DNA from: Arthrobacter sp. SW1
Lineage (GTDB): Bacteria > Actinomycetota > Actinomycetes > Actinomycetales > Micrococcaceae
DNA length: 64,000 bases
Reading direction: 5' to 3'
NCBI RefSeq assembly: GCF_001766675.1
Contig: NZ_MJLT01000067.1
Span: 1 to 64,000 of the forward strand
A program made the position numbers and the translations under genes. Below are positions 41,577 to 49,622 of this stretch, in pieces (positions within the stretch are counted from its first letter, which is position 1; each line of letters opens with the position of its first letter). The notes beneath the pieces are model-generated. The model did not search any database. It saw nothing but the letters and a program-made list of their open reading frames with translations, and was not told the DNA's origin.

Positions 41577-42530
41577 CTACAGCACCCGCACCGGATTGCC
41601 CTGCGCCCAGGCGCGGACGTCCTCGAAGGCCTCGCCGTAGTAGCGGGTGTAGCTTTCGGCGGTGACGTAGCCGAGGTGCGGGGTCAGCACGGTGCGCGGC
41701 GCGTCGAGGAGGGGATGGTCCGCGGGGAGGGGCTCGACGTCGTACACGTCCAGCGCCGCGCCGCCCAGCCAGCCTTCGTTCAGCCCGCGCAGCAGCGCGT
41801 CCCCGTCCACGAGCGGTCCGCGGGCCGTGTTCACAAGGAGGCCGTTCGGGCCGAGCAGCCGGAGTTCCTCCTCTCCGACCACCCCGCGTGAGCGGTCGGA
41901 GAGCCGCACGTGGACGCTTACGACGTCGGCCTCCCGGAAGAGGGCGTCCTTGCTCACCTTGCGGACGCCCGCCGCAGCTGCGGTTTCCTCGCGCAGGTTG
42001 GGGCTCCAAGCGATGACGTCCATGCCGAAGGCCTGCGCGTAGCCGGCCACTTTGCTGCCGATTTTGCCGAGGCCGAGGATGCCGAGGGTCTTGCCGGCGA
42101 GTTCGAAGCCGACGGTGCTTTGCAGGCGGCCGGCGCGCATGGCGTTGCCTTCGAACTGCAGGTTCCGCGCGGCGGCCAGGAGCAGTGCCCAGGTCAATTC
42201 CGGTGCTGCGGTGGCGGAGCCGCCGGTGCCGCAGACGGTGATTCCTTGCTCCTTGGCGGCGTCGATGTCGATGGACGGGTTGGCCATTCCCGTGGTGACC
42301 AGCAGTTTCAGCTTCGGCAGCTGGTGAATGGTGGAGGCCGGGAACGGTGTGCGCTCTCGCATGGCGACGATGGCGCTGAACTCGCGCAGCGCCTGGACCA
42401 GGTCCTCTTCGTCCGCGAAGGGCTCGCTGAAGACGGTGACGTCGATACCGTCCGCGGCGAGCTGGTCCCACGACGCGTAGTCGTAGGCGACACCCTGGTA
42501 GTCATCGAGGATTGCGAGGCGCTGGCGCAT
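41577..42530 (-). CDS. D-2-hydroxyacid dehydrogenase family protein
   Basis: The 317-residue enzyme has the NAD-binding motif LGILGLGKIGSKVAGYAQAF, the catalytic Arg in NTARGPLVDGDALL, a Glu in the following helix region and the catalytic His in LTPHLGYVTAES. It reduces or oxidises a 2-keto/2-hydroxy acid with NAD(P). ATG 42530 follows AAGGAGCCCC. It heads a two-gene unit with the GNAT gene. It marks the left border of the lower-GC island at 42.5-48.4 kb. Confidence 0.9.
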   Translation of the reverse strand: MRQRLAILDDYQGVAYDYASWDQLAADGIDVTVFSEPFADEEDLVQALREFSAIVAMRERTPFPASTIHQLPKLKLLVTTGMANPSIDIDAAKEQGITVCGTGGSATAAPELTWALLLAAARNLQFEGNAMRAGRLQSTVGFELAGKTLGILGLGKIGSKVAGYAQAFGMDVIAWSPNLREETAAAAGVRKVSKDALFREADVVSVHVRLSDRSRGVVGEEELRLLGPNGLLVNTARGPLVDGDALLRGLNEGWLGGAALDVYDVEPLPADHPLLDAPRTVLTPHLGYVTAESYTRYYGEAFEDVRAWAQGNPVRVL

Positions 42531-42887
42531 GGGGCTCCTTCTGCTTGGGGCGTTGGAGTCCACGATAGTGCGGGGTTGGGTTGGAGGCTCAACACGTGTG
42601 TGGGTCCAATGGCCTGCGGGGACAGAGCGTGATCCGCGGCGACGGGCATCAAAGACCACGGCACCTGCGGTTTGGTTTCGAGCAATGACGCCATAGCCGC
42701 GCGGCCGCGCTGTTCAGGTGCCCGCGGGCTACATCCCCTCCTTGGTGTTATTGGTGCCACACCGGGTTGTATTATCTGGTCGAGCCCCATAAGGTTGGGA
42801 ACAACATATCCCCCACGCCTCGGGCCTTCACAGGTACTGCGCAAATTGGGGGATCTTTCATTCCCCGGACATTGTGAGGGGAGCCGC
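42531..42887. other. intergenic region at the left edge of the low-GC island
   Basis: No gene is seen in these 357 bases. Base composition shifts toward AT from about 42740 on. A weak promoter for the Abi gene may lie at TTGTAT (42767-42772) and TAAGGT (42790-42795) with 17 bases between. No tRNA, attachment repeat or integrase was recognised. Confidence 0.4.
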
Positions 42888-43895
42888 ATGCGCTATGAAA
42901 AGCCTGCGTTGAGCCTGGCCCAGCAACTAGAGCAGTTGCGATCGCGCGGCCTGCGTATAGACGATGACGAAAAGGCCCTGCGGTATCTGGCCCGGATCGG
43001 CTACTACCGCCTGTCGCCCTACATGATTCCGCACCAGCTCCCGGGAGGAACCCATCGCTTTCGCAGCGGCGCCGACTTTGACGGCGTTCTGCGACTTTAC
43101 ATCTTCGACCGACGATTGCGGTTGTTGGTTATGGACGCCCTTGAACGTTTCGAAGTTGCCCTGCGGGCCACCCTGTCAAACCACATGTCCCTGAAGAGCG
43201 CAGACCCCTTTTGGTATCTGGACTCGTCGCATTTTCAACGCCAAGGCGATCATGACCGCCTCCTGCAGGATCTGACGAAAGCCAGAGACGATGAGCAGCA
43301 CCGTTTGGATCAAGACCTCAGACGGCTGCAGGTGCGACCGCCTAAGAATCTCGAACGGGCAACCGAGGACGCAAGAAAGCAGTCATTCTTGCGGCACTAC
43401 CTTTCGGCGTACGATGAGCCGTCCCTGCCCCCGTCATGGATGATGATCGAAATGCTGTCCTTCGGTGATCTCATGTACTTGTATAGGAACCTCGCTGACC
43501 GCGAAGATCGGAAAGAAGTCGCCCGAGAGCTCGGAATCACGGACGAGCTCCTAAGCTCCTGGCTCGGCACCTTCCAATACACACGCAACCTCTGCGCGCA
43601 CCATGGCCGGGTGTGGAACCGGCAATTCGGCGTGGCACCGAGGATCCCGCGCTCGCCGGGAGTTGCGTGGTTGGCGGATACTGAAACCTTCCGCGGCAAA
43701 GGAAGCTACCGCCGGTCGCGCGTATTCCCCGTAATTGTCGCGCTCCAAACCGTGTTGGGCGCGATCAGCCCCGGTTCTCAGTGGGCCAATCGCTTGAACG
43801 ACCTTCTTGGAGAATTCAGCGCTGTCCCTTTGAACCCCATGGGCTTCCCAAAGGAATGGCGTGCAGATGAATTTTGGCAGCCCTACTTTCAATAG
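42888..43895 (+). CDS. Abi_2 family (AbiD/AbiF-like) abortive-infection protein
   Basis: The 335-residue protein matches the Abi_2 family. It has LAQQLEQLRSRGLRIDDDE at the start, LARIGYYRLSPYMIPHQ, LYIFDRRLRLLVMDALERFE and MMIEMLSFGDLMYLYRNL. The HEPN-type Rx4H motif RNLCAH (Arg233-His238) is present. HEPN proteins of this group are probable RNases that stop growth on phage infection. The ATG at 42888 follows GAGGGGAG. Codon use is less GC-rich than in flanking genes, and the next gene is a large putative defence protein. Together this suggests transfer as a defence island. Confidence 0.88.
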   Translation: MRYEKPALSLAQQLEQLRSRGLRIDDDEKALRYLARIGYYRLSPYMIPHQLPGGTHRFRSGADFDGVLRLYIFDRRLRLLVMDALERFEVALRATLSNHMSLKSADPFWYLDSSHFQRQGDHDRLLQDLTKARDDEQHRLDQDLRRLQVRPPKNLERATEDARKQSFLRHYLSAYDEPSLPPSWMMIEMLSFGDLMYLYRNLADREDRKEVARELGITDELLSSWLGTFQYTRNLCAHHGRVWNRQFGVAPRIPRSPGVAWLADTETFRGKGSYRRSRVFPVIVALQTVLGAISPGSQWANRLNDLLGEFSAVPLNPMGFPKEWRADEFWQPYFQ

Positions 43896-44010
43896 GAACC
43901 CTGCCTGTGAGGATGAGCTGCCGGCCTGGGATGACTCCCCGAATAGCTGCCCTCAAGTTGTTGAACGTGAGAACCCATATCCTAGGTATTCGGTAGAAAA
44001 GGATGGATGA

Positions 44011-47000
44011 ATGGTCACCCGTGTGGAAACCGAGGCGTTCATTCGCTTCCAGTTGGATCAGCTCGGCGCGCAAAATCGACACCACGAGTTCGAGAACATT
44101 TGCTTCCGCATTGCTCAACGTAGGATCAGCAGTAACGTGCTCCCGGCCACTGGACCAGTGAGCAGCGGTGGGGACCAAGGGCGGGATGGAGAAACATTCT
44201 TCTCCGCTCTTCCCGAAGAGCTTCCCAGAGCAGGTGGATTCGTCGGCCGGGCCACGAAAGAACCTCTCGTCCTTGCCTGCACGATTCAGCGCACTGACCT
44301 GAACACTAAGATCAAAGGTGATCTTGAAAAGATCACATCCCAAGGCCAGCCCGTCGCCAGGGTCGCCTACTTTATGGCACAGAACCTGCCCGTGAGCATC
44401 CGGCACGACCTTCAACAGTATGCGCGCCAACAGCATGGCCTCGATCTTGAGATTTTTGATGCGATGGCAATAGCGACACTTCTGGCCGAGCCTGATCTGG
44501 TGTGGGTCGCCGAGAAGATGCTCGATTTGCCCTCGAACCTCGTGCCGACGAATGACCCGGACGTTCCCCAGTGGTACCAGGACCTGCTCCGCCGGGTCAG
44601 GACCTCCGACGGAGCCCTTACCACGGCTGGCGATTTTGCTGTTGTCAGGGCCGGGCTCCGCCACGCAGTACAAAGCCCCGAAGCACAGAACGACTTGGCT
44701 GAGTGGCTTCAATGCACGCGCTCTTTCATCAGTTCGGACCCGGAAAGCACCGTTTCCGAGGAGGTACAGATGAAAGCTCGATACGAAATCGTTGTTGCGA
44801 CTCTACGCGGGATGGAAACCCTTGCGAACGTGGAAGTGTATATCGATGAGTTCATTGACTACGCGGCCGAGAGTTCCGCATCAAGTGACCTGACTGACGC
44901 CAGCGTCCTCATCTCATATTGGCAAGGCGCGTGGGCCCGTGGAATCTCCTCGACCACTTCAGACCACCTAATGACCCAACTTCGGCGAATTTTGGACCGT
45001 GTCGATGCGCTGATAGCGGAAACCGATCCTGATGTTTACCCCAACGCCACGGCGCATCTTCTTGCGGCTCGCGCGCATATCCTGTTCCACCCTGACGTCA
45101 CCGGTATGGTGCGAAATCCAAATGCCCCTGCCATGATCGTGGGTACGGAGGACATGACCCTGCAGGAGATCCTTGGCAAAGCGGGATCGGCTGAAGCAGT
45201 GAACATCCGGCTGGATCCGCTGATGACCACACTTGGAGACCTTGCTGAGCTCCTGCCTATCGCACGCGCCTTTCCTGTACAGACCACCTGCGACCTTTTT
45301 GAGGCTTACAGCCCGGTTCTCGTAGCCCACGAACAATACGAGAAGGTCAGGAATGCGCTGGATAAAGCGATCTGCTCGGTTGAAGGCGACAACGCAGTCG
45401 CCGAGCGCTGCAGAAGCAGAGCCTTGACCTTTATCAAGTCCGAGAAGCCTCTCCTGGCTCTGCGGGAGTTTCACAAAGCTAAAATCAACTGGTTCCACGG
45501 CGACACAATGCGAGGTTCAGTTCTGGCCATGCTCACGATCGCAAGTGTGTATTCCGATCTGAAGCTCCCTCACGCCGCCAAGAAGTACGCCTTAAATGCC
45601 GCGTCCATCGCAGTTTCTTCTTCAGATTCAGACGTGATCGATTTGGTCGGCGACAGCCTTATTCAGGCGTTTCATCATTGCTACGCGGCAGGCGCGTGGT
45701 TGGACGCCACCGCTTTGAGCCAAGTGGCAATACAAGCACATGGTATATACGCAGAGGATGCCTTTGATCGTGAGCAACACCCGGATCTAGCCGGGATGGA
45801 CTTTCACCAGAGTATGATCTGCATGACCGCTAGAAAGTTCAGGCCGGAGCTGGTTGGAATACTCACGGACATTCTGTCGCAAACGGACTACGACAAGATG
45901 ATCTGGCAGTTAGTTGACCAGGTTGAGGGTTCCTTTGCATACGACGAGGCGAGTCTTGCGAGAGTTTCCGTGGAACAGCTTGGGGCTCGCCCGTTCAGCG
46001 ATACCGGGCCGACGCGTTCATTGAGCTTCTCGGCGCTTGGCACACACTGGAACATAAGCTGCCCAAATGACAGAGCAACGGTACTTGCCGCTGAAAGGTT
46101 TGCAGCGGCTGCCCAGATTCTTCTGTGCGAACTTGCAACAGAGGATCCGGTTCTCCTGGATGAAAACGTCTCGGTAGAAGTCCGACTGGCAGGTTCCGAG
46201 TATGAGGAACGAGTGGAGTTCAAACCTGACAACCACCAGCTCAAGGCACTCGTGACCCTCCTGCCTTACACGGACCATGCAGATGCTGACGCGCTAGAAC
46301 ATGAAATCTTAGGTGCAGTAGGCGTGCTTCTCATACGCCTGAGCGCCCTGTCGCAAGAACAAATCATGGACATGCTCGATGACGCCTTCGCCAGAGGTTT
46401 CCTCAACCAAATCTCGTTCGGCCGGCCTTACGACGAAACATCCGGACTGCTCGACGATAGCCACTACAGCCAAGCGGCTATGGTCGGCAACCATATTATC
46501 GGTAGCGGGGATTGCGTTACTTCGACAAGCCGCGCTTTGGAACAACCATCATCGTACGGTCCTGGTTTCTCGGAGACCGAATGGCGGAAAATGATTGAAG
46601 AACGCTATGAGGTTTCTACTCTCGTGAGCTTCACCCTGGCCCGGATATTGCGCAACAAGACGTGCCACAGGATTCTTTCCGAACTTCGAGAAGAGGGCTG
46701 GCTGGACTGGCACCTGCTATTGGCCATATTTAATGTGGCGACAAACTATCGCATTCGGTGCGAGCTCGGCCGGGACAGTTCGTCCCCGGAGATGCTGCGA
46801 AAGGTCACTCCGGATTTTCTTCACAGACGCGAAACGTCCGACACTCCAAACATTCCCCTCCACCATTTCTCAAAGGAAGGCCTGCGTGATGCCTTTGACC
46901 TCGCAACCCTTAGCGTCGCCAAACGTCTAGGACTTCACATAGACCGTGACACTCCGAACATCAGTGGGGTACGGCGGCTGCTGGATCGAAGATACGGATT

Positions 47001-47043
47001 CATGGAGGACGTGCCCCACTCCGACCTCCTATCACCTCAGTAA
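44011..47043 (+). CDS. large putative defence protein with nuclease-like N-terminus and helical-repeat body
   Basis: I know no name for this 1010-residue protein. Residues about 5-175 resemble an N-terminal domain common in actinobacterial multidomain proteins. It has EFENICFRIAQRRI, ATGPVSSGGDQGRDGE (Asp55, Asp59, Glu61), LACTIQRTD (Gln93) and LEIFDAMAIATLLAEPDLVW. This pattern fits a PD-(D/E)xK/Mrr-like nuclease in which the usual Lys is replaced by Arg94; that reading is inference. The body is mostly alpha-helical, with TPR-like stretches near 455-610. No P-loop is seen. AAAAGGATGG precedes ATG 44011. GC is visibly lower than in flanking genes. Adjacent Abi_2 supports phage defence. Confidence 0.75.
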   Translation: MVTRVETEAFIRFQLDQLGAQNRHHEFENICFRIAQRRISSNVLPATGPVSSGGDQGRDGETFFSALPEELPRAGGFVGRATKEPLVLACTIQRTDLNTKIKGDLEKITSQGQPVARVAYFMAQNLPVSIRHDLQQYARQQHGLDLEIFDAMAIATLLAEPDLVWVAEKMLDLPSNLVPTNDPDVPQWYQDLLRRVRTSDGALTTAGDFAVVRAGLRHAVQSPEAQNDLAEWLQCTRSFISSDPESTVSEEVQMKARYEIVVATLRGMETLANVEVYIDEFIDYAAESSASSDLTDASVLISYWQGAWARGISSTTSDHLMTQLRRILDRVDALIAETDPDVYPNATAHLLAARAHILFHPDVTGMVRNPNAPAMIVGTEDMTLQEILGKAGSAEAVNIRLDPLMTTLGDLAELLPIARAFPVQTTCDLFEAYSPVLVAHEQYEKVRNALDKAICSVEGDNAVAERCRSRALTFIKSEKPLLALREFHKAKINWFHGDTMRGSVLAMLTIASVYSDLKLPHAAKKYALNAASIAVSSSDSDVIDLVGDSLIQAFHHCYAAGAWLDATALSQVAIQAHGIYAEDAFDREQHPDLAGMDFHQSMICMTARKFRPELVGILTDILSQTDYDKMIWQLVDQVEGSFAYDEASLARVSVEQLGARPFSDTGPTRSLSFSALGTHWNISCPNDRATVLAAERFAAAAQILLCELATEDPVLLDENVSVEVRLAGSEYEERVEFKPDNHQLKALVTLLPYTDHADADALEHEILGAVGVLLIRLSALSQEQIMDMLDDAFARGFLNQISFGRPYDETSGLLDDSHYSQAAMVGNHIIGSGDCVTSTSRALEQPSSYGPGFSETEWRKMIEERYEVSTLVSFTLARILRNKTCHRILSELREEGWLDWHLLLAIFNVATNYRIRCELGRDSSSPEMLRKVTPDFLHRRETSDTPNIPLHHFSKEGLRDAFDLATLSVAKRLGLHIDRDTPNISGVRRLLDRRYGFMEDVPHSDLLSPQ

Positions 47044-47078
47044 CGGTTCGACAACCGGGTTCGCTTCCTCTGTGGGCA

Positions 47079-47339
47079 TTAGGTGCGGATAGTCGCACGC
47101 ATTGGATGATCGTTTCCAAAGAAGTCGGTCCACGTCACCAAGCAGTCGACGGCATTTGGGGAGCCGATTGCCAGCAAGAGCGGGAACTGTGCCTCCTGTC
47201 TTGGCGGGATTGTGCCGAGCGAGCCGTCGTCCCGAACTACTCTATAAAGTCGGTATCTCGCAGTCCCACGAAGTGAAGTCAACACTGGAGGCGCCCGCCC
47301 GGGTCGGTCCTGAGCAAGACCAGGCAGAGCCACTGGCAA
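47079..47339 (-). pseudogene. C-terminal fragment of an unidentified protein
   Basis: The frame opens with a TTG and has no ribosome site. Its last 60 codons read like a folded beta domain (YRLYRVVRDDGSLGTIPP, LVTWTDFFGNDHPMRATIRT). This looks like the 3' remnant of a longer gene whose front has been lost. The rest of 47044-47450 shows no gene. Confidence 0.4.
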
Positions 47340-47450
47340 ACAGCGACAGCCGACATCGCTACGACCTCTTATGTAGCTTCAATTTGAGGCCTTGTGCGCC
47401 GGCTGCATCATGTTCACGAGAGTGGATACGAATGACGCATGCGGTGGTGG

Positions 47451-48044
47451 CTACGCCGGGGCCAATTCCACTGCCAGACCGTGCCGGAGGGCCTTCGCGA
47501 TTCTCTGATAGTCCCCTTCTTCTATGGCGCGGTACTCATCAATGTTTTCCAGCAATGGGTTGGCGCCGGCATCGAGTATGTAGTGGACTTCGAATCCCTT
47601 GCCGTTGACCACCCATTGCCCGTCTTCAGGGTCCGGATCGGCATCCTCAATGGGAACAAACAAGTTTGGAACGTTGATCCCCCGGGGGTTGACCTGCCTC
47701 AGATTGGGGTCCATTAGGAGTGCCGGTTCATCGAGAGTGAGCACAACGTGCCCTAAATTGTCATCGTCGCTGAGAGCGTTACCCTGCAGCGTTTCATGTT
47801 GTTCCGGCGTCAGGCTTGCCCAAATTTTTCGACCCATGCAGATGCTTCCGCCGGAAACTGTGTCATTGACTCCGACTGAAACAGGCCGCAGCTTGAGGTC
47901 ATAGCCAAGATGCTTGGCGATGCCCTGAAGCATTACTGCCGCCTCGACGCATGCAGTGTTCGTGCCAAACCTTTGTCCCACAAGCTCGAAAGCTCGGTGA
48001 AGGGTCTCTAGTGAAGCTTTCGGTAGAGGCTCCCGCCGCTTCAT
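47451..48044 (-). CDS. hypothetical protein with transglutaminase-like Cys-His-Asp residues
   Basis: No firm family is recognised. The 197-residue protein has Cys32 at a helix start (GTNTACVEAAVMLQGIAKHL), then His99 (LGHVVLTLD) and Asp112 (LMDPNLRQV). This order and spacing are seen in transglutaminase/papain-like cysteine enzymes. If real, it would be a protease, amidase or acyltransferase. AAAGGAAG about 9 bases before ATG 48044 makes this start better than one 60 bases earlier. It is the last recognisable gene of the low-GC island and is read against the large defence-like gene. Confidence 0.6.
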   Translation of the reverse strand: MKRREPLPKASLETLHRAFELVGQRFGTNTACVEAAVMLQGIAKHLGYDLKLRPVSVGVNDTVSGGSICMGRKIWASLTPEQHETLQGNALSDDDNLGHVVLTLDEPALLMDPNLRQVNPRGINVPNLFVPIEDADPDPEDGQWVVNGKGFEVHYILDAGANPLLENIDEYRAIEEGDYQRIAKALRHGLAVELAPA

Positions 48045-48448
48045 CTTATTTCGGCTTCCTTTGCCCACAATTCCCCTCTGCAGTGCCACTTGTTGTGCAA
48101 GCATCTTGTCACAGAATGGGGGCCGCCAGTGCCAATAGGGTAAGCATCAGACTACGATCCCTCGGGGATCAATAAAAAGGGAACCGTCCCAGTCGGCAGA
48201 ATTCGAGGTTGTATCCACCTCGCTCGGATTAGACGACCTAACGAGGTTGGCGCACGGCTTTTCGGGGTGTCTGACGACCTTTGGGGATACGACCCGCTGC
48301 CCACTGACCTTCGTCAGCTAGGTTGAAATAATCTTCGCCATCGGTGATCGCCGAATGAACTACAACCAGCCCCGGCAAGCGCAGGACAGTCCCGCGCCGC
48401 CAGGCCCGCTTGCCGTCGCCAGGACCACCCCGCCCCCAAACCAAGAAC
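48045..48448. other. right edge of the low-GC island
   Basis: No convincing gene is seen in these 404 bases. A 68-codon minus-strand frame at 48238-48444 has some protein-like sequence (SAITDGEDYFNLADEGQW) but no good start and may be a remnant. A short hairpin GATCCC/GGGATC lies at 48156-48170. Composition returns to high GC near 48360. Confidence 0.35.
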
Positions 48449-49462
48449 CTACTTCTTCGGCAACCCCGGCGGGTTCAGCTCCGACTTTGCAATAGCCTCC
48501 GAAGAAAGCCCCCACCGGTCCAGGATCTTCCCGTACGTCCCGTTCTTGATCAGCGAGTTAAGAGCAGCCTGCGCCGCCACCGCGAGCCCGTTCCCCTTCT
48601 TCGTGGTGAAAGCGATGTCGGCCTTCAGCGGCCAGCCGCCGTTCACCGTGCCCACCTGCTTGGTCTTGCCGTCCTTCGCCGCCTTGTACGCGGCCCCCGC
48701 GTTGGGACCGAAAGTAAGGTCCGCACGCCCGGACTGCAGAGCCAGCGACGAGGCCGAGTCGTCGTCGTAATACTGGAACTCAACCGGCGGCAAACCCGCC
48801 GCCCGGTTCTCCTCGTCCCAGCGCACCAGGATCGCCTCCTGGTTGGTGCCCGAGCCCACGATCACCCGCTTGCCCGCCACATCCTTCGCTTCCTTGACCT
48901 CGCCGATGTCCGAGTCGCTCTTCGCATAGAAGCCCAGGAGGTCGGTCCGGTAGCTGGCGAAGTCGAACTTCTCCTTGCGCTCCTCCGTGACCGTCACGTT
49001 GGACAGCACGGCCTCGTACTTGCCGGACGCCACGCCCAGCGGCCAGTCCGCCCACGCCACCGGCAGCACCTCCACCTGCAGGCCCAGCGTCTCGCCCACC
49101 GCGTACGCCAGGTCCACCTCGTTGCCGATCAGCGTCTTGTTGTCCGTGGCGAACAGGCTCAGTGGCGCGGTGCCGCCCGTGGTGACCACGGTCAGCTTGC
49201 CGTCCGCCTTGATGGCCTCGGGCACCAAGGCCGCGGCGGCGTCGTCCTTCGTGACCGGGAAGCGGTCCTGCTGGGGGCTGAGGTTGAACGTCTTCTCGCC
49301 GATGGTCGCAGCGGACGACGACGGCGCTGCCGCACCCTGGGAGCCCTGTGTTGACTGACCTTGGGCTGCGGTTGCGCCCGGGTCGGAGCAGGCGGTGAGA
49401 CCGAGTGCCGCAGCCGCCACCAGCGCTAACGCCGTGCCTGTCTTTGAAGCCGAAATTGCCAT
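48449..49462 (-). CDS. orphan amino-acid ABC substrate-binding lipoprotein
   Basis: The 337-residue protein has lipobox LTAC (Cys25), a Gln/Ser/Ala-rich linker and a family 3 binding domain. Its sequence is strikingly like the 31631 protein: KLTVVTTGGTAPLSL, VGSGTNQEAILVRW, GNGLAVAAQAALNS and DRWGLSSEAI all have counterparts there. It sits alone, with no permease or ATPase gene nearby, so it probably feeds the 29773-31619 transporter or one outside the window. ATG 49462 is preceded by GGGG; an in-frame start 45 bases earlier would lengthen the signal unnaturally. Confidence 0.9.
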   Translation of the reverse strand: MAISASKTGTALALVAAAALGLTACSDPGATAAQGQSTQGSQGAAAPSSSAATIGEKTFNLSPQQDRFPVTKDDAAAALVPEAIKADGKLTVVTTGGTAPLSLFATDNKTLIGNEVDLAYAVGETLGLQVEVLPVAWADWPLGVASGKYEAVLSNVTVTEERKEKFDFASYRTDLLGFYAKSDSDIGEVKEAKDVAGKRVIVGSGTNQEAILVRWDEENRAAGLPPVEFQYYDDDSASSLALQSGRADLTFGPNAGAAYKAAKDGKTKQVGTVNGGWPLKADIAFTTKKGNGLAVAAQAALNSLIKNGTYGKILDRWGLSSEAIAKSELNPPGLPKK

Positions 49463-49622
49463 GGAAATACCCCTGAATTCTGCTGAACGGTGTGCTTGTG
49501 GCAGCAACTATCCGGCAGCGAAAACAGGGCGGTCAAAGCGCACCGAAACGCTTGGATACAGTGCGAAACCGGGCTTAACCGCGGGTCCGGGAACGTCATA
49601 TTCCGGGCCGTGGAAACCAGCG

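Follow-up and report, generated by a model that had tools for sequence, protein, structure and literature searches.

A probable single-gene defence protein with a predicted PD-(D/E)xK-type nuclease domain and an NTPase-free sensor body in Arthrobacter sp. SW1

The window, a 64,000-nucleotide stretch of the genome of Arthrobacter sp. SW1, carries a gene for a 1010-residue protein, which is probably a single-gene, NTPase-free defence protein made up of an N-terminal PD-(D/E)xK (Mrr/Avs4-like) nuclease and a sensor body of about 830 residues. The defence reading is supported by the effector fold with its invariant residue set, by the recurrence of effector and body, each independently, in other proteins, by mobility and by defence-rich neighbourhoods. 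The family is apparently undescribed, travels with mobile DNA and exchanges parts with bacterial immune proteins, and therefore it most likely represents a one-gene alarm-and-kill defence. In the resting state, the body would keep the nuclease off, probably within an oligomer. Once the body binds an invader component, the complex would rearrange and nucleic acid, most likely DNA, would be cleaved in a metal-dependent manner, leaving the infected cell killed or arrested (abortive infection). Phage sensing and nucleic-acid cutting by this protein, both proposed earlier from the letters of the sequence, are inferences.

The gene and the inserted block

41577-42545, minus strand: dehydrogenase gene, left flank of the block
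42533..48447, no strand: inserted block of about 5.9 kb with the Abi_2 gene, the 1010-residue gene and a 217-residue ORF, defined by the ends of nucleotide homology and by empty sites
42888..43895, plus strand: Abi_2/AbiD-type gene (Pfam PF07751, 1.2e-51; PADLOC AbiD, 2.1e-65)
44011..47043, plus strand: gene of the putative 1010-residue effector-sensor protein (P0001), ATG start
48449-49507, minus strand: ABC substrate-binding protein gene, right flank of the block

A plausible ribosome-binding stretch, AAAAGGATGG, lies just 5' of the 1010-residue ORF. Full-length homologues with 73-83% identity were found in four other genomes, and dN/dS along the gene is 0.07-0.16 (0.07 for residues 1-180 and 0.10-0.16 elsewhere), which indicates purifying selection over the entire gene. 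Because of these full-length homologues and the low dN/dS, the ORF is a real gene. Its GC content is 55.7%, compared with 67.2% in the 10 kb to the left and 65.7% in the 10 kb to the right, and the lowest-GC 3-kb intervals of the 64 kb all start within 43.8-45.3 kb. The low GC against the neighbours noted in the sequence-only reading (flanks at 66-67%) is therefore borne out, as is the Abi_2 gene that it placed directly upstream.

In at least four congeners (G053, G011, G021 and G042), the two genes flanking the block lie side by side, with gaps of about 60-130 bp, and the nucleotide homology of congeners with the window ends at about 42532 and returns at about 48448. Consequently, the block of about 5.9 kb, with a GC content of 56.8%, is an insertion. 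The 1010-residue gene is carried by 4 of the 99 relatives (its own genome counted) and by 3 of the 396 genomes of the order. A housekeeping protein, acting perhaps in DNA repair or regulation, would agree with purifying selection over the whole gene, but the absence from most relatives, the insertion with its empty sites, the occurrence on plasmids and the domain swapping described below make this extremely improbable. A housekeeping role was rejected for a gene that is patchy, inserted and mobile.

The 217-residue ORF inside the insertion (47451-48104, minus strand) has a sub-threshold transglutaminase-like match in Pfam (0.11) and falls into no other family. Very similar serine-recombinase-like genes (GYVRVSTLDQNEKRQLEGQVLDRVF) are located 3' of the gene at two other loci (L022, 11851-12429, plus strand; L006, 14914-15534, minus strand), and these could possibly belong to a carrier element.

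The putative N-terminal nuclease domain

44011..44550, plus strand: residues 1-180, predicted PD-(D/E)xK-type nuclease effector domain (invariant residues, AF2 model, structural matches)
44092..44310, plus strand: codons of the invariant putative active-site set E28, D55, D59, E61 and K100 (N-domain alignment)

Residues 1-180 are, according to the AF2 model, a PD-(D/E)xK-type domain, and sequence comparison adds a putative invariant acidic/lysine set. Two alignments were used, one of ten full-length sequences and another of the N-domain, likewise of ten sequences, which includes the sister types of Nostoc and of a phage scaffold. The invariant residues are F27, E28, T47, G48, P49, G53, G54, D55, D59, E61 and K100, and the GGDQGRDGE cluster pointed out earlier indeed reads so at G53-E61. 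The slot of the canonical (D/E)xK lysine is occupied here by Q93, within T91-x-Q93. Among relatives, residue 93 is Q, N or E, with K in the sister type, whereas K100 never varies. The residues Q93-R94 had been read as replacing an Mrr-type Q-x-K motif; the residues themselves are as described, but the comparison is off because the invariant lysine is K100 and the slot is variable.

The AF2 model of residues 1-188 (pLDDT 75.8, pTM 0.74) is of moderate confidence and has the helix and strand order of PD-(D/E)xK nucleases, with an alpha-beta-beta-beta-alpha-beta core. In this model, K100 is positioned near the start of the helix that follows the canonical-slot strand, and it could provide the lysine from there, while the loop with D55 and D59 has a pLDDT below 50. 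Foldseek gave modest E-values of 2e-3 to 5e-3 for the N-domain model, with MspJI as the best match (2.2e-3) and Avs4 at 3.5e-3 (probability 1.00). In the VIA comparison, the Avs4 effector ranked first (8dgf_B, Z 10.5, 151 residues aligned, 12% identity), followed by AspBHI (Z 9.2), MspJI (Z 8.8) and then the nuclease domains of EcoT38I, FokI, Shedu and Card1. The nuclease core supposed from the sequence is thus present in the model. The BFVD search returned only weak matches, which were RPB5-like and restriction-endonuclease-like.

At the sequence level, searches of PDB gave nothing credible, whether with the 1010-residue protein or with profiles of the N-domain and of the body, and the Pfam, NCBIfam, PADLOC and PHROGs matches of the whole protein were sub-threshold and probably due to chance. 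No nuclease relative was recovered by sequence in the PDB and family searches, and the PDB profile search with the N-domain gave no match to Avs4.

Improbably, the N-domain might bind nucleic acid and not cut it, so that the protein would be a DNA- or RNA-binding regulator or blocker. The Q93 in the canonical lysine slot and the poorly modelled active-site loop would suit such a protein, but four acidic residues and K100 are invariant even in distant sequences, K100 may act from the following helix, and the domain's swap partner on homologous bodies belongs to a known nuclease family. A cutting nuclease is the reading kept here.

In two homologues, the nuclease domain is broken while the body remains open. 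In Pseudarthrobacter sp. H3Y2-7 (L006, 10001-13027), codon 33 is an in-frame TGA that interrupts the domain, and in Bradyrhizobium sp. 27S5 (L011, 7971-10915), the split falls within the domain and the two annotated ORFs overlap by 4 bp. A costly effector or a sequencing error would fit these breaks. Another protein, of 736 residues in G142 (L077, 8029-10239, plus strand), weakly matches an Mrr-like motif (SPGGDGGRDAELYSP) and, judged from that match, may be one more fusion protein with a related nuclease domain.

The sensor body and the exchange of parts

44551..45933, plus strand: residues 181-641, TPR-like helical superhelix of the body (low-confidence model, TPR fold matches)
46003..46350, plus strand: residues 665-780, alpha/beta module (modelled secondary structure) conserved in all body homologues
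46351..47040, plus strand: residues 781-1010, helical C-terminal part, the fastest-evolving (ortholog divergence)

The full-length AF2 model of the 1010-residue protein is weak (pLDDT 51.6), so it is used for the fold class only and for no inter-domain claims. In this low-confidence model, helices 187-641 resemble TPR superhelices, including LGN (Z 15.4) and a STAND protein with a TPR sensor (Z 14.3), matches that are taken as fold class only since helical repeats score high by default. Between close orthologues, residues 1-180 are 86.4% identical (dN/dS 0.07) and residues 781-1010 are 69.8% identical (dN/dS 0.16), which fits the C-terminal part as a candidate variable recognition end. No solved chain has detectable sequence similarity to the body. 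As stated from the sequence earlier, the protein has no P-loop; the motif scan ([GA]x4GK[ST]) found none in it or in 13 body homologues, and Pfam gave neither an NTPase family match nor a SIR2 match for it.

Homologues of the protein were found in Actinomycetota and Alphaproteobacteria, many of them on plasmids or beside defence genes. The tblastn search against plasmids recovered full-length or near-full-length homologues with 27-35% identity in Streptomyces, Mycobacterium, Bradyrhizobium, Blastomonas, Agrobacterium and Ensifer. The full-length scan of the viral_contigs set with the 1010-residue protein found no relative, and scans of the same set with the N-domain and sister-body profiles did find relatives.

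The N-domain is present on four kinds of bodies. Besides the window type, there is a sister type of about 1060-1120 residues, found in Nostoc, Cohnella, Cupriavidus and viral contigs; its body shows distant homology to the window-type body (hhalign 98.4%, E 6e-15, 482 columns). The third kind is the STAND-TPR protein, which occurs as an NB-ARC protein of 843 residues in G627 (NB-ARC, 1.5e-8) and as an AAA protein of 1103 residues in G944 (P-loop GMGGTGKS; AAA_16, 9.5e-8; TPR_12, 5e-45). The fourth is a protein of 1045 residues in G958 (L076, 8491-11628, plus strand), for the body of which Pfam gives no match and BLAST no similarity to the window-type body; it represents a third kind of non-STAND sensor. 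In the other direction, a Cap4/DUF4297- or LmuA-like nuclease precedes a window-type body in Hymenobacter and Fibrella; the Pfam values are 4.9e-8 and, just short of the cut-off, 2.2e-5, and those of PADLOC LmuA are 1.6e-7 to 2e-4. Two nucleases exchanged at one position, one of which is also used on STAND proteins, are as expected of an effector-plus-sensor immune protein, and this two-way swapping is the main evidence for an immune role.

Tentatively, the body may belong to an undescribed, NTPase-independent sensor superfamily with two sister types of about 830-900 residues, which swaps at least two nucleases and shares one of them with NLR-like (STAND) proteins, as a parallel 'NLR without the motor'. 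Such a superfamily would range over Actinomycetota, Pseudomonadota, Bacteroidota, Bacillota, cyanobacteria and phage contigs. If the effector-sensor reading is right, one nuclease effector works under both NTP-driven NLR-like switches and an NTPase-free body, and a direct comparison of the two could show how the NTPase contributes to immune signalling. Plasmids of soil-dwelling and plant-associated bacteria, as well as phage contigs, would then carry a compact single-gene defence family that the libraries used do not recognise.

Avs4 (AVAST type 4) is a STAND NTPase with an N-terminal nuclease, and the 1010-residue protein resembles it in the effector fold and, going by the TPR-like body of the low-confidence model, may resemble it in the large helical C-terminal sensor. 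The N-domain also occurs on other STAND proteins (G627 and G944). However, the 1010-residue protein lacks the NTPase and the P-loop, and membership in Avs was rejected for want of an NTPase. The nucleases of Avs1-Avs4 cut the genomes of both phage and host and thereby kill (PMC12931631). DSR2, which has an N-terminal SIR2 NADase and a helical sensor, works without an NTPase and is triggered by the phage tail tube protein (PMC11087589). As one protein with an N-terminal enzyme, a long helical body and no NTPase, it may be the closest working analogue, although the effector here is PD-(D/E)xK-like and not SIR2. With MspJI and AspBHI, which are Mrr-like and modification-dependent, the N-domain shares the nuclease-domain fold (Z 8.5-9.2), but no modified-base reader domain was identified in the 1010-residue protein and its lysine is displaced (K100). 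Cap4/LmuA (DUF4297) replaces the N-domain on homologous bodies in Bacteroidota, whereas the N-domain of the window has no match to those models, and neither an LmuB SMC partner nor a CBASS cyclase adjoins it. Membership in Cap4/LmuA was rejected, as Pfam and PADLOC gave no such domain match in the 1010-residue protein. No description of this architecture was found in the open literature searched; DefensePredictor gives 13 validated PD-(D/E)XK systems (PMC13092281), among which this family may already figure.

Neighbouring genes

42809..42854, plus strand: candidate abiF RNA (RF03085; 30.6 bits, E 0.017, under the gathering score of 37)

The candidate abiF RNA lies 33 bp 5' of Abi_2 in three Actinomycetota loci, namely the window, L006 (8841-8886) and L023 (12391-12436). 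The sub-threshold score suggests an actinobacterial variant of the RNA antitoxin. The neighbour gene thus has both the Abi_2 domain and, with its score below gathering, the upstream abiF RNA motif, and the likeness to AbiF/Abi_2 with abiF RNA belongs to this gene and not to the 1010-residue gene. In Clostridioides difficile, AbiF is a toxin that makes up a self-contained pair with its RNA antitoxin (PMC12373285).

One could suppose that Abi_2 and the 1010-residue gene form a single obligate two-gene system, with Abi_2 for example as a second effector or regulator. The pair is directly adjacent in the window, in G022 (Abi_2 86% identical) and in L006 (77%), where the two genes are co-inherited, and a different Abi_2 (27.5%) is divergently upstream of the homologue in G041. 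Nevertheless, no Abi_2 was found within 10 kb of the L005 homologue or of the distant homologues tested, and at all three loci Abi_2 has its own candidate abiF RNA, the counterpart of a pair that is self-contained in C. difficile, which leaves the two-gene system quite improbable. An obligate unit was rejected, as the pairing is not kept in most homologues. Because Abi_2 is missing near most homologues, has a candidate RNA partner of its own and resembles the C. difficile pair, it is treated as separate and is probably an independent module. The one-gene reading proposed from the sequence is accordingly favoured.

Defence genes surround many homologues. In G041, the neighbours are Lamassu LmuA and LmuB and a second AbiD, in G192 the PADLOC candidate PDC-S06, and in M. 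gordonae Shedu. The Streptomyces homologue is accompanied by CHAT, HEPN and restriction-endonuclease genes, the Blastomonas homologue by ABC-three-component and reverse-transcriptase genes, and the Fibrella homologue by CBASS and AbiE genes. Among 52 neighbour ORFs of five homologues, the matches were two AbiD, LmuA, LmuB, PDC-S06, UzuA and RT_UG29, plus RecD-like and PDC-S68; the control of 57 ORFs, from one other region in each of the same five genomes, gave mainly UvrD-helicase models. This comparison is a small sample of five loci, with matches counted per set and not assigned to single ORFs, and within it the family is associated with defence genes and mobile DNA. The homologue contexts are mobile or defence settings, not core metabolism, as the sequence-only reading had anticipated.

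The same contexts bear on what is sensed. Plasmids, several of them conjugative, carry many homologues of both body types, and phage contigs carry some, which would suit inter-element competition, with the sensor turning its nuclease chiefly on plasmids or other mobile elements and not on phages. This target is unlikely, since the neighbours are largely anti-phage (Lamassu, Shedu, AbiD) and the effector is also found on Avs-type STAND proteins, a class that recognises phage proteins (PMC12931631).

Furthermore, Ser/Thr protein kinase genes adjoin three homologues, in Agrobacterium (L016, 6722-7882, plus strand), in a viral contig (L028, 9248-10690, minus strand) and in Cupriavidus (L084, 8780-10087, plus strand), and they may be either a recurrent partner or only defence-island neighbours.
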